Shown: piece after piece, positions 11,549 through 26,033 of the stretch | Position numbering within the stretch: position 1 is the first letter of the stretch | Layout of the letters: each line of letters starts with the position of its first letter | DNA from: Thermanaeromonas sp. C210 | GTDB lineage: Bacteria > Bacillota > DSM-521 > Neomoorellales > Neomoorellaceae | Direction of reading: 5' to 3' | DNA: 64,000 bases | Assembly: GCF_013167955.1 (NCBI RefSeq) | Contig: NZ_BLWF01000003.1 | Coordinates: 372,001 to 436,000, forward strand | The notes under the pieces: model-generated | Seen by the model: only the letters and a program-made list of their open reading frames with translations | The model's database searches: none | Told to the model about the DNA's origin: nothing | Translations under genes and position numbers: made by a program

Positions 11549-11577
11549 TTGTTTTTGCCTCTACCTTAACCTATAAT
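11549..11577 (+). promoter_or_regulatory. Sigma-A promoter of the ANTAR-glnA operon
   Basis: TTGTTT (11549-11554), a 17-base spacer, and TATAAT (11572-11577), about 85 bases upstream of the regulator start. Confidence 0.7.
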
Positions 11578-11663
11578 GATAAAGCAACAGGGCAATGGTG
11601 TCCTAGACTGGCCGCAAAGGGGTGGCGATGTTATCGGTATTTATTGTAGAGGTGGGGCCTTCA

Positions 11664-12263
11664 GTGCGTCAGCCCAGGATTTTTCTGGCATCGGCCGACC
11701 AGACATCCCTTCAGTCTTTGAGGCAGGTGTTGCAGCGGGAAGGGTATCTGGTAGCGGGAACGGCCCAGGACGGTTCCCAAGCCCTGAGGTTAATTCATAC
11801 CTTGCACCCCGATCTGGTCATTCTCGATAGTGAACTAATAGGAACCGGTGCTTTGGAGGTTGCGAGGTTCATCAATGAAAAACAAGTAGCGCCCATTATT
11901 ATGCTGGCTTCCTCCTGGCACCGCAATATCATCAGTAAAGCGCGGGATTTTCCGGTGTTTGCCTACTTGATCAAACCAGTGCAGGAAAACGCCCTTTTAC
12001 CGGCTGTAGAAGCGGCCCTGGCTAACTATGAAAAGCTGGCCCGTTTAGAAGAAGAAGTAAACAAATTAAAAGAAACTCTGGCTGCCCGCAAGCTTATTGA
12101 GCGGGCGAAAGGAATCCTTATGGAGACTTTAGGTATAACAGAAGCAGAGGCTTATCGCCGCATCCAGCGGCAAAGTATGGATAGGTGTGTTCCCATGAAA
12201 ACTATCGCCGAGGCTATAATTGTGGCTCACGACCTGCAAAAAGAGGAACAGCATAAAAAATAA
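11664..12263 (+). CDS. ANTAR-domain response regulator (RNA-binding antiterminator)
   Basis: A protein of about 199 residues: receiver-like domain at the N-terminus (PRIFLASADQTSLQSLRQVL; LVILDSELIG at the phosphorylation region), a coiled-coil linker (LEEEVNKLKETLAARKLIE) and a C-terminal ANTAR domain with RAKGILMETLGITEAEAYRR, then MDRCVPMKTIAEAII. ANTAR domains bind paired hexaloop hairpins and prevent termination. GTG 11664 fits the receiver start and has AGAGGTGG upstream; GTG 11622 or ATG 11628 would add an unconserved tail. It sits directly upstream of glnA, whose leader contains such hairpins, the NasT/AmiR-like arrangement common before Firmicute glnA genes. Confidence 0.9.
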   Translation: MRQPRIFLASADQTSLQSLRQVLQREGYLVAGTAQDGSQALRLIHTLHPDLVILDSELIGTGALEVARFINEKQVAPIIMLASSWHRNIISKARDFPVFAYLIKPVQENALLPAVEAALANYEKLARLEEEVNKLKETLAARKLIERAKGILMETLGITEAEAYRRIQRQSMDRCVPMKTIAEAIIVAHDLQKEEQHKK

Positions 12264-12378
12264 AACTCTTATCGCGTAGTTTTAGTTTTTATAGTTTATT
12301 CATTTAAGGGCAACGGCGTCCTCTAAGCAGAAAGGTAAACGTAATTACCTTCTGCGGGGACGCTTTTAATTTTTCTTT
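12262..12378 (+). promoter_or_regulatory. ANTAR-type antiterminator/terminator leader of glnA
   Basis: Candidate P1: AAAACT (12262-12267) pairs with AGTTTT (12278-12283) around hexaloop ATCGCG. P2: AGGGC-AACGGC-GTCCT (12307-12322), a 5-bp stem with hexaloop AACGGC. Both loops have A at position 1 and G at position 4, the known ANTAR consensus. The 3' arm of P2 (GTCC) is also the 5' arm of a long terminator (GCGTCC 12316-12321 with GGACGC, plus inner stem GCAGAA...TTCTGC) followed by TTTTAATTTTT. P2 and the terminator therefore exclude each other, which is the expected switch. Confidence 0.75.
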
Positions 12379-12406: not shown

Positions 12407-13744
12407 ATGAATGACAAGGAAAAGAGGGCTAGAATCTTAAAGCAGGCGGAAGAATGGGGAGTCAAATTTGTGCGGCTGCAGTTTACCGACATATTGGGTG
12501 TATTGAAAAATGTAGCCATTCCAGTAACCCAGCTCCCTAAGGCCCTAAATAATGAATTAATGTTCGACGGTTCTTCCATTGAAGGCTTTGTCCGTATTGA
12601 AGAATCGGATATGTATCTTTATCCTGATCCGGATACTTTTGTCGTTTTTCCCTGGAGGCCCCATGAGGGGACTGTAGCCCGGCTTATTTGCGATATTTAT
12701 CACCCCGACGGCACTCCCTTCCCGGGCTGCCCTCGTAATACTTTGAAGCGGGTACTGGCTGAAGCTGAGGAGATGGGCTTTGTCCTGAACGTAGGGCCCG
12801 AGGCCGAATTCTTTCTCTTCCATACCGACCAGTCCGGGCGTCCTACTCTGGAAACCCACGACCGGGCCGGCTATTTCGATCTTACTCCTATAGATCTGGG
12901 AGAAGATGCCCGCCGGGATATGGTACTAACCTTGGAACAGATGGGCTTTGAAATTGAAGCTTCTCACCATGAAGTGGCTCCGGGACAGCATGAGATCGAT
13001 TTTAAATACGCCGATGCTTTAACCACGGCCGACCGCATTGCCACTTTTAAATTTGTGGTGAGGACTATAGCCCAGCGTCACGGCCTCCATGCCACTTTTA
13101 TGCCTAAACCCATATATGGTATCAACGGTTCCGGTATGCATTGTCACATTTCTCTCTCCTTCTCAAATGGGCAGAATGCCTTTTATGATCCCCAGGGAGA
13201 ACTGGAGCTCAGCGAAATAGCTTATCAGTTTATAGCCGGCATCATGGCTCATGCCCGGGCGCTGGCGGCTATTACCAATCCCACGGTCAACTCTTACAAG
13301 CGCCTGGTACCCGGCTATGAAGCTCCGGTTTACATTGCCTGGTCGCCCAGGAACAGGAGTCCTCTTATACGTGTTCCTGCTAAACGAGGGCCCTCCACCC
13401 GTATAGAGGTGCGGCATCCCGATCCTTCGGCCAATCCTTATCTGGCCATTGCCGTCCTGCTTAAAGCTGGACTGGACGGCATTAAAAAGCGGATGGTACC
13501 CCCTCCCCCCGTATATAAGAATATTTATGCCTTGACTTCCGAAGAACGGGCCCGAGAAGGTATAGGCGTTTTGCCGTCCACCCTGGAAGAGGCCCTGAAC
13601 GAACTGGAGAAAGACGAGATAATCAAGGAGGCCTTAGGAAGCCATATTTATGAGCGTTTTATGGTGGCCAAGAGGCTGGAATGTGAACAGTACCGGACGA
13701 CGGTGCACCCATGGGAGATAGAGCGGTACCTTACCAAGTTCTAA
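12407..13744 (+). CDS. glnA: Glutamine synthetase, type I
   Basis: A 445-residue enzyme of standard GSI length that makes glutamine from glutamate, ammonia and ATP. Visible signatures are [29 protein letters not shown] (metal ligands), the glycine loop [28 protein letters not shown], and [16 protein letters not shown] in the active site. ATG 12407 follows AAAGGAGG. Expression is probably controlled by the ANTAR leader just upstream, and the glutamate synthase genes follow within 35 bases, giving the GS-GOGAT cycle in one operon. Confidence 0.97.
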
Positions 13745-18174: not shown

Positions 18175-18912
18175 GTGAAAAAGATAAACGCCCGCGGTTT
18201 GGGTTACCGGGAATTGAATGAGAAAATCAGGTCGCTCCTCGATAACGGCGAAGATGAACTGGTCATTGAGAATGTTAACGGACAGAGATACATCGGCACC
18301 GGGATACAAGGTAAAGCCAGACTAAAAATCTACGGGGTCCCGGGCAACAATCTCGGTGCCCTTATGGATGGTCTGCATATTGAGGTTCATGGCAACGCCC
18401 AGGATGGAGTGGGCAATACCATGAACGACGGTACGGTTATCATTCACGGGCACGCTACCGATATTGCCGGCTATTCCATGCGGGGCGGCAAGATTTTTGT
18501 TCGCGGTAATGTAGGTTACCGTGTAGGTATTCATATGAAGGCTTTTAAGGAGAAAAGTCCTTTAATTGTAGTAGGGGGACGGGCAGGGGACTTTCTGGGC
18601 GAATATATGGCCGGGGGAACCCTGGTACTCTTGGGCCTGGATCTCAGACCAGGTGAAAGACTCGTGGGCAACTATCTGGCTACCGGTATGCACGGTGGAG
18701 AAATTTTCATCCGCGGGGAACTCAAGGGAGTGTTCTTAGGTAAAGAGGCGCAACCCCTTGAGCCCAGCCGCGAGGACTACGAGCGCCTCAAGTCTATTGT
18801 AGAGGAATTTGCCAGTTATTTTGGCCTCGATAGCGATAGAATTCTATCTGAATCCTTTATAAAGCTGATTCCTTTAAATAGACGTCCTTACGGCAACCTC
18901 TACGCCCATTAG
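18175..18912 (+). CDS. GXGXG-domain subunit of glutamate synthase (GlxC/GltB-C type)
   Basis: A 245-residue right-handed beta-helix protein corresponding to the C-terminal GXGXG domain of GltB. Repeats are visible as GNNLGALMDGLHIEVHGNAQ, DGVGNTMNDGTVIIHG, DIAGYSMRGGKIFVRGNVGY and GEYMAGGTLVLLG. The domain is structural, holding the amidotransferase and synthase subunits together around the ammonia tunnel. GTG 18175 follows GGGG. It completes the five-gene split glutamate synthase. Confidence 0.9.
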   Translation: MKKINARGLGYRELNEKIRSLLDNGEDELVIENVNGQRYIGTGIQGKARLKIYGVPGNNLGALMDGLHIEVHGNAQDGVGNTMNDGTVIIHGHATDIAGYSMRGGKIFVRGNVGYRVGIHMKAFKEKSPLIVVGGRAGDFLGEYMAGGTLVLLGLDLRPGERLVGNYLATGMHGGEIFIRGELKGVFLGKEAQPLEPSREDYERLKSIVEEFASYFGLDSDRILSESFIKLIPLNRRPYGNLYAH

Positions 18913-18999
18913 GCCGTGAACGGGACGGCCCCCCGATCATATAATGAACAAGAGGGCGACGACGTCCTTCGCATTATGTGCGGGGGCGTCTTTTATTTT
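18912..18999 (+). promoter_or_regulatory. ANTAR-type antiterminator/terminator leader of asnB
   Basis: P1: GGCCGT...ACGGCC (18912-18930) encloses GAACGGG, giving hexaloop AACGGG after one bulged G. P2: AGGGC-GACGAC-GTCCT (18953-18968) has the same 5-bp stem as the glnA P2. The terminator GACGTCC (18961-18967) ... GGGCGTC (18984-18990) plus TTTTATTTTT uses the 3' arm of P2, so the two are mutually exclusive. The P2 loop has G rather than A at position 1, which weakens the ANTAR match slightly. Confidence 0.65.
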
Positions 19000-19021
19000 T
19001 CTTAATGGGGGGTAGAAATTA

Positions 19022-20866
19022 GTGTGCGGCATTAGCGGGTGGATAGACTGGGAAGTAGATGTGACCCGCCACAGGCCGACCTTGGAAGCCATGACCGAAA
19101 CCCTCTCCTGCCGCGGACCCGATGCCGGTGGAATCTGGATTTCACCCCGGGCGGGCCTGGGCCACCGCCGCCTGATAGTAGTCGACCCTGAGGGCGGTGT
19201 TCAGCCTATGGTTCGCAAGAGAGGGGAGGAACAGTACATCATAATTTACAACGGCGAGCTTTATAACATGCCAGAGCTGCGCAGAGAACTGGAGGCCCGC
19301 GGGTATTCTTTCCAAACCCGTTCTGACACTGAAATTATCCTGGTGGCCTTCATGGAATGGGGAATGGAATGCGTCGAACGTCTGAACGGCATTTTTGCTT
19401 TCGCCATCTGGGATGTAAAGGAGCAAAGCCTGTTCTTAGCCCGCGACCGCCTGGGAGTTAAACCGCTATTCTATGCCCAGCGGGGTAGCGCTTTCCTTTT
19501 CGCCTCGGAATTAAAAGCCCTCCTTACCCACACAGCGGTTCGTCCGGAAATAGATGCCGAAGGGCTGGCCGAGATTTTTGTTATAGGCCCGGCCCGCACA
19601 CCGGGGCACGGAGTGTTTAAAGGTGTTGCTGAGCTCAAACCCGGACACTGCCTGCTGTATCACCAAAACGGTATCTCTATACGCCAGTACTGGAGGCTTC
19701 AAAGTCATCCTCACCCGGATGATCTGGATACCACCGTTGCTAAGGTCAGGGACCTTCTAAAGGATTCCGTCGAGCGGCAGCTTATATCTGATGTTTCTCT
19801 CTGCACTCTACTATCCGGTGGCATTGATTCGAGCGCTATTACCGCCTTTGCCGCCGGAGCACTGCGACGGAAGGGGTTGGAACCCCTTAAGACATATTCC
19901 ATAGATTATGCAGGCAACGAGAGCTATTATAGGCCTAATGAGTTCGAACCCACCTCTGACAGGGATTGGGGGAGAAGAGTTGCGGCCTTTCTGGGTACTA
20001 ATCATCATACCGTCGTGGTTGATACTCCCGAGTTGGTCGAAGCCTTAACAGCGGCTGTCCAGGCTCGCGATTTGCCAGGCATGGCAGATATCGATGCCTC
20101 CCTTTACCTCTTCTGCCGCGAAATTAAGAAAGGGGCGAGCGTAGGCTTGTCAGGCGAATGTGCGGACGAAGTCTTTGGGGGTTATCCATGGTTTAGGCGC
20201 CAGGAGGCACTCCGGGCCCGGACCTTTCCCTGGTCCCTTGAAATAGAGAAAAGGGTGCGCCTGCTCTCGCCTGAGCTAACCCAGGAGATCCGGCCCTTGG
20301 AGTACGTAGCGGACCGGTATGCTGAGGCACTGGCTGAGGTACCCCGACTTCCGGCAGAAAATCCTTTCGAAGCCCGCATACGCGAGATTTTCTACCTGAC
20401 CCTTACCCGCTGGATGCCCACCTTACTGGACCGCAATGACCGTATGAGCATGGCGGTGGGTTTGGAGCTCCGCGTACCCTTTTGCGATCACCGCCTGGTA
20501 GAGTATGTCTGGAATGTTCCCTGGGCCGTAAAGTACGTGGACGACAAAGAAAAAGGTCTTTTGCGCCGGGCCTTAGCAGGTGTACTGCCAGACGAAGTGC
20601 TGGCGCGGCGCAAAAGCCCGTATCCCAAAACGCATAATCCTGCTTTTCTGCATGCCGTGGGTGCCTGGGTGCGGGATATTGTTCACCAGCCTAATTCACC
20701 CCTGCGCCCCCTCATAAATATCCCCGTTGTCCGAGCTCTCGTGGAGTCACGTACCGAGTTCGATATACCGTGGTTTGGGCAGCTCATGAGACGACCGCAG
20801 CTCCTGGCCTACTTGGCCCAGATAGATTTTTGGTTGCGGGAATATCGGGTGTCGCTTGACCTTTAG
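19022..20866 (+). CDS. asnB: Asparagine synthetase (glutamine-hydrolysing)
   Basis: A 614-residue enzyme making asparagine from aspartate, glutamine and ATP. The mature N-terminal Cys 2 (MCGISGWIDW) is the amidotransferase nucleophile, with RRLIVVDPEGGVQPM and IIYNGELYNMPELR in the first domain. The synthetase domain has the PP-loop LSGGIDSSAITAFAA near 264 and GLSGECADEVFGGYPWF. The GTG start at 19022 is fixed by the need for Cys at position 2. The leader upstream resembles that of glnA, so asparagine and glutamine synthesis are probably co-regulated. Confidence 0.95.
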   Translation: MCGISGWIDWEVDVTRHRPTLEAMTETLSCRGPDAGGIWISPRAGLGHRRLIVVDPEGGVQPMVRKRGEEQYIIIYNGELYNMPELRRELEARGYSFQTRSDTEIILVAFMEWGMECVERLNGIFAFAIWDVKEQSLFLARDRLGVKPLFYAQRGSAFLFASELKALLTHTAVRPEIDAEGLAEIFVIGPARTPGHGVFKGVAELKPGHCLLYHQNGISIRQYWRLQSHPHPDDLDTTVAKVRDLLKDSVERQLISDVSLCTLLSGGIDSSAITAFAAGALRRKGLEPLKTYSIDYAGNESYYRPNEFEPTSDRDWGRRVAAFLGTNHHTVVVDTPELVEALTAAVQARDLPGMADIDASLYLFCREIKKGASVGLSGECADEVFGGYPWFRRQEALRARTFPWSLEIEKRVRLLSPELTQEIRPLEYVADRYAEALAEVPRLPAENPFEARIREIFYLTLTRWMPTLLDRNDRMSMAVGLELRVPFCDHRLVEYVWNVPWAVKYVDDKEKGLLRRALAGVLPDEVLARRKSPYPKTHNPAFLHAVGAWVRDIVHQPNSPLRPLINIPVVRALVESRTEFDIPWFGQLMRRPQLLAYLAQIDFWLREYRVSLDL

Positions 20867-25064: not shown

Positions 25065-26033
25065 GTGGCTGGGGAGCTAGCGAGAAAACGGGCTTGGGGT
25101 GGAGTGCCGGGAAGCTGCCCTGGGGAAAGAGAAACTGGGGCCGGGAGCCGCGATTTGCCCGCCCTACAGCCGGAAGACGAGTCTGTTACCGCGGAAAGCC
25201 GAGGGGAAGTTTTTGCTCACTTAATCGCTGCTGCGCCCTATTTCTACCAGCTAATGGGAGAGAGGGGTATCCTGGGAGTTACGGATACGTCAGAGTATTT
25301 ATGGATCAAGGAACCCCAGCACCTACCCATTAGTACCGGTGTCACCCCGGGACACCCCGTCCAGGAAGGGACGGTGGCCGGGGAGGCCATCAGGACGGGG
25401 AAACGGGTTGAACGTCAGGTGACGAGGGAAACATCCCGTTTCGGGGTGGGCTACTACGGGATGGCCGTTCCGGTATTTGACCGCGGCAAAGTCGTCGGCG
25501 CCATTAACTTTATACTTCCCACCGGCATACAAGACAGGTTGCGCGAGATTTCGGCCCAGCTGGTCGACTTTTCCTCCAAGGTCCATAACGCTATGGGCGA
25601 TATTGCCGGTGCGGCTGCGGAGCTGGCCACTTCGGCGGCCGAAATGACCGAGTACTCCACCGAGCTGCAGGAGGGAATGAAAGTTTTGGAGGAAGTAATC
25701 AGGCTGGTACGCGATGTAGCCGACAAAACCCACTTGCTCAGCTTGAATGCCGCGATAGAGGCTGCCAGGGCTGCCGAACACGGCCGGGGTTTTGGGGTGG
25801 TAGCCGTGGAAGTGCGTAAGCTGGCCGAAAGGGTTAAGCAGAGCGTCATCCAGATGGAGAGCAGGATCAAGCACATGACCAGCATAATGGAGGGTATAGT
25901 TGAAAGGGTTGGAAACTTGAACGCCATGAGTCAGAACCAAGCCGCTGCTTCAGAAGAGATAAACACCATGGTAGCCATCCTTAATCAGGCGGCAAAGGAG
26001 ATAGATGAGGTGGCCAAAAAAGGCTGCTTTTAA
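25065..26033 (+). CDS. Soluble methyl-accepting chemotaxis-type signalling protein
   Basis: A 322-residue protein without membrane segments. After a Gly/Arg/Glu-rich N-terminus, residues about 48-165 form a sensor-like domain (VFAHLIAAAPYFYQLMGERG; GYYGMAVPVFDRGKVVGAIN, PAS/GAF-like). The C-terminal half is the MCP signalling hairpin with the invariant tip LLSLNAAIEAARAAEHGRGF and VVAVEVRKLAERV. It probably talks to a CheA/CheW array or regulates another cytoplasmic partner. GTG 25065 follows AGGAGGAGACGACGAGG. Its place ahead of alcohol and aldehyde genes suggests sensing of a related metabolite, which is inference. Confidence 0.85.
   Translation: MAGELARKRAWGGVPGSCPGERETGAGSRDLPALQPEDESVTAESRGEVFAHLIAAAPYFYQLMGERGILGVTDTSEYLWIKEPQHLPISTGVTPGHPVQEGTVAGEAIRTGKRVERQVTRETSRFGVGYYGMAVPVFDRGKVVGAINFILPTGIQDRLREISAQLVDFSSKVHNAMGDIAGAAAELATSAAEMTEYSTELQEGMKVLEEVIRLVRDVADKTHLLSLNAAIEAARAAEHGRGFGVVAVEVRKLAERVKQSVIQMESRIKHMTSIMEGIVERVGNLNAMSQNQAAASEEINTMVAILNQAAKEIDEVAKKGCF

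Follow-up and report, generated by a model that had tools for sequence, protein, structure and literature searches.

A putative ANTAR-type attenuator lacking hairpin P1 in the asnB leader of Thermanaeromonas sp. C210

The leader of asnB in Thermanaeromonas sp. C210 probably attenuates transcription in the manner of ANTAR-controlled RNAs, and it has no upstream hairpin P1. This reading rests on the observed sequences, on two mutually exclusive folds, on the conservation of the P2 hairpin and its terminator, and on true tandem hairpins found elsewhere; the dual hairpin that EutV was shown to require is missing at this asnB, which argues against it. The stretch of DNA that was analyzed (the window, 64,000 nucleotides) contained, in this order, a gene encoding an ANTAR response regulator, glnA, the split glutamate synthase genes (glt), and asnB, whose leader lies directly 3' of the last gene of the glt operon (Table 1). 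The initial annotation predicted that one regulator controls glutamine and asparagine synthesis together. Sequence comparison indicated that such joint control is well supported at the family level, because tandem hairpins with A at position 1 and G at position 4 of the hexaloop (A1/G4) precede asnB in Moorella and other Firmicutes and the genome has a single ANTAR gene, whereas the window site is degenerate. A single regulator for both pathways is thus plausible and partly supported, and the response of the window asnB to ANTAR is uncertain because its claimed P1 is non-canonical and not conserved and its P2 loop begins with G (G1).

Table 1. Coordinates of the features discussed (numbering of the window).
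Feature	Position	Strand	Remarks
-10-like box TATAAT before ANTAR-gene leader	11572-11577	+	Sequence; relatives have one at the same place
Tandem hexaloop hairpins before ANTAR gene	11589-11626	+	AGGGC-AATGGT-GTCCT (11589-11604); GCCGC-AAAGGG-GTGGC (11611-11626)
Receiver and ANTAR response regulator	11622-12263	+	Pfam PF03861 9.7e-23, PF00072 1.3e-15; EutV-like, Rv1626-like
glnA-leader hexaloop hairpin GGGC-AACGGC-GTCC	12308-12321	+	P2 type, without upstream partner hairpin
glnA-leader terminator	12316-12372	+	Overlaps hairpin 3' strand; T-rich tail; fold -28.1 kcal/mol; pattern match
glnA	12407-13744	+	TIGR00653 4.4e-179
Inverted repeat GGCCGT-GAACGGG-ACGGCC (claimed P1)	18912-18930	+	Improbable as ANTAR hairpin; 7-nt loop; overlap with weak -35 region
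-10-like box TATAAT between claimed P1 and P2	18940-18945	+	Sequence; conserved in two orthologous leaders
P2 hairpin AGGGC-GACGAC-GTCCT	18953-18968	+	Sequence, folding; loop position 1 is G, position 4 is G
asnB-leader intrinsic terminator	18961-18999	+	Uses P2 loop and 3' strand; T tract 18991-18999; arms conserved
asnB, glutamine-hydrolysing asparagine synthase	19022-20866	+	TIGR01536 2.3e-157

Both the P2 hairpin that had been described before asnB and its overlapping terminator were confirmed, and the same layout recurred before glnA, where the terminator ends at 12363. At asnB, the 5' arm of the terminator (GACGTCC, 18961-18967) is made up of the P2 loop and 3' strand, and the 3' arm (GGGGGCGTC, 18982-18990) is followed by TTTTATTTTT; the terminator (18961-18990 with its T-rich tail) ends shortly 5' of the gene. 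P2 and the terminator are mutually exclusive because they have strands in common, and the folding energies were -18.9 kcal/mol for the terminator vs. about -8 kcal/mol for P2 alone. The fold of positions 18930-19000 was more stable than all of its 200 shuffles (z = -4.5). As in ANTAR dual-hairpin RNAs, P2 overlaps an intrinsic terminator and carries G at loop position 4 (G4), both in the window (GACGAC) and in the orthologous leaders of genome G017 and M. sulfitireducens (AAAGGC and AAGGAC).

Such a terminator, placed right behind the last glt gene and ahead of asnB, could also be an ordinary terminator of the glt operon that is followed by an asnB promoter, its likeness to P2 being accidental. 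Readthrough RNA of the glt operon would in addition form a long hairpin at 18930-18986 (CCCCCG..CATATAATG with CATTATG..CGGGGG, -29 kcal/mol), which encloses P2 and which, of the three genomes compared, only that of the window has. As a further antiterminator, an outer hairpin of 17 bp (18930-18946 paired with 18972-18986) was rejected, since it is not conserved in the orthologs. An ordinary glt terminator is nevertheless improbable. The asnB leaders of M. sulfitireducens and genome G017 agree with that of the window in the -10-like element (as CCRATCATAYAATRA), in the P2 stem, and in the arms of the terminator, despite different surroundings: in G017, asnB lies at a distance from the ANTAR gene, in M. 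sulfitireducens it immediately precedes that gene, and in the window it follows glt, which indicates that the leader belongs to asnB and moves with it. Furthermore, the conserved -10 element lies upstream of the terminator, so that RNA from this promoter must cross it, and the motif occurs in asnB leaders elsewhere far above chance.

The upstream partner of P2 did not stand. The initial annotation had proposed a P1 with the loop AACGGG; the inverted repeat in question has a heptaloop, GAACGGG, that is closed by a U-A pair and separated from P2 by 22 nt, and it is missing from the two nearest orthologous leaders. The linker between P1 and P2 in the eut leaders of E. faecalis is 5-12 nt long, and no second hexaloop hairpin was found upstream of the window P2 within about this distance. 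Neither canonical nor loose definitions of P1 gave a match in the window or in its two nearest asnB orthologs (M. sulfitireducens and G017). The claimed P1 is therefore unlikely to be an ANTAR hairpin. The TATAAT box predicts an asnB transcription start near 18952, about at P2, so that the claimed P1 would be missing from the asnB RNA; the -35 region, which the claimed P1 overlaps, is weak (GTGAAC) and is common to M. sulfitireducens.

The genome-wide check comprised pattern and covariance-model searches. The pattern GGGCRANGNCGTCC had six exact matches in the genome vs. three for a control pattern, and only those at glnA and asnB lay in leaders; the other four were apparently inside genes, had no attenuator-like layout, and were set aside. 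The search suggested in the initial annotation, in which a terminator-like tail follows the pattern, gave three matches vs. two for the control; it recovered the glnA and asnB leaders, but the pattern alone is not significant genome-wide, and the case therefore rests on where the sites lie, on their overlap with terminators, and on their conservation among relatives. A search of the window genome with a covariance model built on tandem leaders gave no significant match (best E 0.29). The model gave the window asnB site 8.6 bits (E = 2, window alone), and a full dual hairpin at this site was rejected. The best match of this model within the window, at 25440-25499, was weak, with a score of 15.1 bits and an E value of 0.069 for the window.

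The protein that might act on these leaders is the only ANTAR protein found in a genome-wide search, and its gene adjoins glnA. Alignment with EutV (6wsh) indicated that the residues holding G4 (Arg142, Lys149, Glu160, and Tyr164) and the Met plug (Met172) are kept, and that Asn173, Arg175, and Arg177, which EutV needs for backbone contacts, are replaced by Asp, Cys, and Pro. The ANTAR gene has a leader of its own with tandem hairpins and no terminator, a third element besides the glnA and asnB leaders. The second hairpin of this pair overlaps a Shine-Dalgarno-like AAAGGGG and the GTG start, and relatives within the Moorellaceae carry tandem hairpins of other stem sequence (GCTAC-AACGGC-GTAGC) at the same place. 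This arrangement suggests that the ANTAR gene may be autoregulated, perhaps in translation. Canonical P1 was missing from all 14 Moorellaceae leaders of glnA genes next to the ANTAR gene; a 3-bp A-U hairpin before glnA of genome G007 was disregarded as a P1.

Tandem leaders were found before asnB in nine Moorella genomes, with P1 GGGGUUGC-AAGGGC-GUGACCCC, a spacer of 3-4 nt, and P2 GGGC-AACGGC-GUCC (or close variants); this P2 is identical in sequence to the glnA P2 of the same genomes. Tandem A1/G4 hexaloops also precede asnB in MAGs labelled Desulfovirgula, Armatimonadetes, Clostridiales, and HGW-Firmicutes-8, in a Thermincola MAG, and in G018, which belongs to the same order as the window genome. 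An alignment of 15 tandem leaders (14 of asnB and one of glt) had pairing in 96.6% of its cells and five pairs changed on both sides, and none of 500 shuffles reached its covariation score. Of 79 related asnB leaders, 19 had a terminator that is overlapped by an A1/G4 hexaloop hairpin, vs. 13 of 1580 shuffled ones (0.8%), and loops starting with C or T occurred once among the 79. The search for ANTAR genes covered 50 genomes: each of the 21 that have a leader of this kind (the 19 together with L109 and L113) encodes ANTAR, and none of the eight genomes without ANTAR has one (Fisher p = 0.015, uncorrected for kinship).

Several further leaders were noted. Tandem ANTAR-type leaders precede further glnA-like genes in G007, G020, and G021 (L209, L210, and L199), either at a distance from the ANTAR gene or next to it, for example GGGAGC-AATGAT-GTTCCC and GGGC-AAAGAA-GCCC with a terminator. 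In Desulforamulus, Desulforudis, and related bacteria (L115, L116, L117, L121, L122, L125, and L155), asnB leaders without P1 carry GGC-AAYGGC-GCC hairpins that overlap terminators or terminator-like repeats. In three Moorella asnB leaders (L049-L051, of G008, G014, and G013), both hairpins persist but the terminator no longer has its T tract, a hint that control may have shifted to a different level, for instance translation.

A switch between P2 and the terminator could also be operated by another ligand or factor, such as an asparagine-responsive element or a T-box, as attenuation of asnB by other factors is conceivable and ANTAR binding here is a prediction. We regard this as very improbable. 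An Rfam scan of the window matched tRNA only, with no riboswitch, T-box, or other family at the asnB leader, which is too short for a T-box; moreover, the hairpin sequence is common to the asnB and glnA leaders and, in Moorella, also to the leader of the ANTAR gene.

The more serious alternative to a working ANTAR attenuator, though still an unlikely one, is that the window site descended from such an attenuator and no longer responds, P1 being gone and G1 closing the loop, so that the terminator would dampen asnB by a fixed amount. The two orthologous leaders have A1, and G1 was seen in none of the other asnB leaders of the set of 79. In folding, pairing of G1 with C6 favors a tetraloop over the hexaloop by 1.8 kcal/mol. 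It has been proposed that Met172 lets EutV exclude tetraloops and that A1 holds the loop open (PMC8934654). Loss of P1 abolished eutP induction. On the other hand, A1 is uncontacted in the EutV structure (PMC8934654), A1 to U is the sole substitution of this position that was assayed in the EutV work, and both the terminator and the P2 stem of the window are intact. G1 also recurs within the regulon, since the first hairpin of the ANTAR-gene leader carries it in three Moorella genomes (G005, G013, and G014).

In the attenuator model that we favor, RNA from the conserved promoter-like element (start near 18952) would fold either as P2 or as the terminator that shares its 3' strand. Without help, the terminator would prevail and asnB expression would be low. 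The active receiver-ANTAR protein encoded before glnA would bind the P2 loop through G4 and stabilize P2, so that polymerase passes; this antitermination would raise asnB along with glnA and glt. The recruitment hairpin P1 would have been lost in the branch of the window genome, and A1 of the P2 loop would have changed to G in the window genome itself, which leaves the strength of the response uncertain. Four elements of the model are inferred: that ANTAR binds, that the promoter exists, that the effect on asnB is positive, and that nitrogen is the signal. Against the model speak, besides the missing second hairpin, the loop base G1 and its pairing with C6, the low score of the tandem-hairpin model at this site, the replaced residues for backbone contacts, and the weak -35 region.

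The unusual feature of this leader type is the lack of P1. Leaders with a hexaloop and a terminator and without P1, as found in all 14 Moorellaceae leaders of glnA genes next to the ANTAR gene and before asnB in several lineages, may be ANTAR attenuators of a natural single-hairpin class, a proposal that we hold only tentatively. If this class exists, ANTAR antitermination could do without the recruitment hairpin, which is regarded as indispensable, and asparagine synthesis would commonly belong to ANTAR nitrogen regulons, a membership so far unreported. If the attenuator model is right, a single RNA-binding response regulator would govern asparagine synthetase together with the synthesis of glutamine and glutamate. 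Leaders that lack P1 would furthermore allow a direct test of how one or two hairpins are used by an ANTAR dimer, a question raised by the EutV-RNA structure, which suggested that the hairpins are bound successively and not simultaneously (PMC8934654).

The initial annotation considered this regulon wider than the usual cis-only case, but ANTAR regulons for nitrogen that span several operons had already been described in 2012. According to the main text of that work, which defined the ANTAR dual hairpin, such regulons occur in Desulfotomaculum, Pelobacter, and others, and their targets include glutamate, glutamine, and arginine synthesis, with glutamate synthase in D. reducens and 13 ANTAR sites in six units in D. 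acetoxidans (Ramesh et al., 2012; PMC3369931). The Desulfotomaculum regulons resemble the present case in that several nitrogen-assimilation units have one type of ANTAR RNA, and they already reach beyond cis-only control; they differ in that neither asparagine nor asnB is mentioned in the main text (PMC3369931). A literature search for a link between ANTAR and asparagine synthetase, which covered main texts of papers available without subscription, found none. Judged by the main text of Ramesh et al., asnB as a recurrent target and P1-less leaders thus appear to be additions to known ANTAR regulons. Like the dual-hexaloop antiterminators of EutV/eutP, NasR/nasF, and AmiR/amiE (PMC3369931), the window asnB leader has a G4 hexaloop hairpin whose 3' strand takes part in a terminator, a receiver-ANTAR protein encoded in the genome, and a target in nitrogen metabolism; unlike them, it has no canonical P1 in reach, G1 in place of A1, and a predicted start at P2. 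Actinobacterial ANTAR-target RNAs (PMC8164766) carry tandem hexaloops over the ribosome binding site, as does the pair before the window ANTAR gene, and they act in translation control, whereas the window asnB leader would be a terminator switch.
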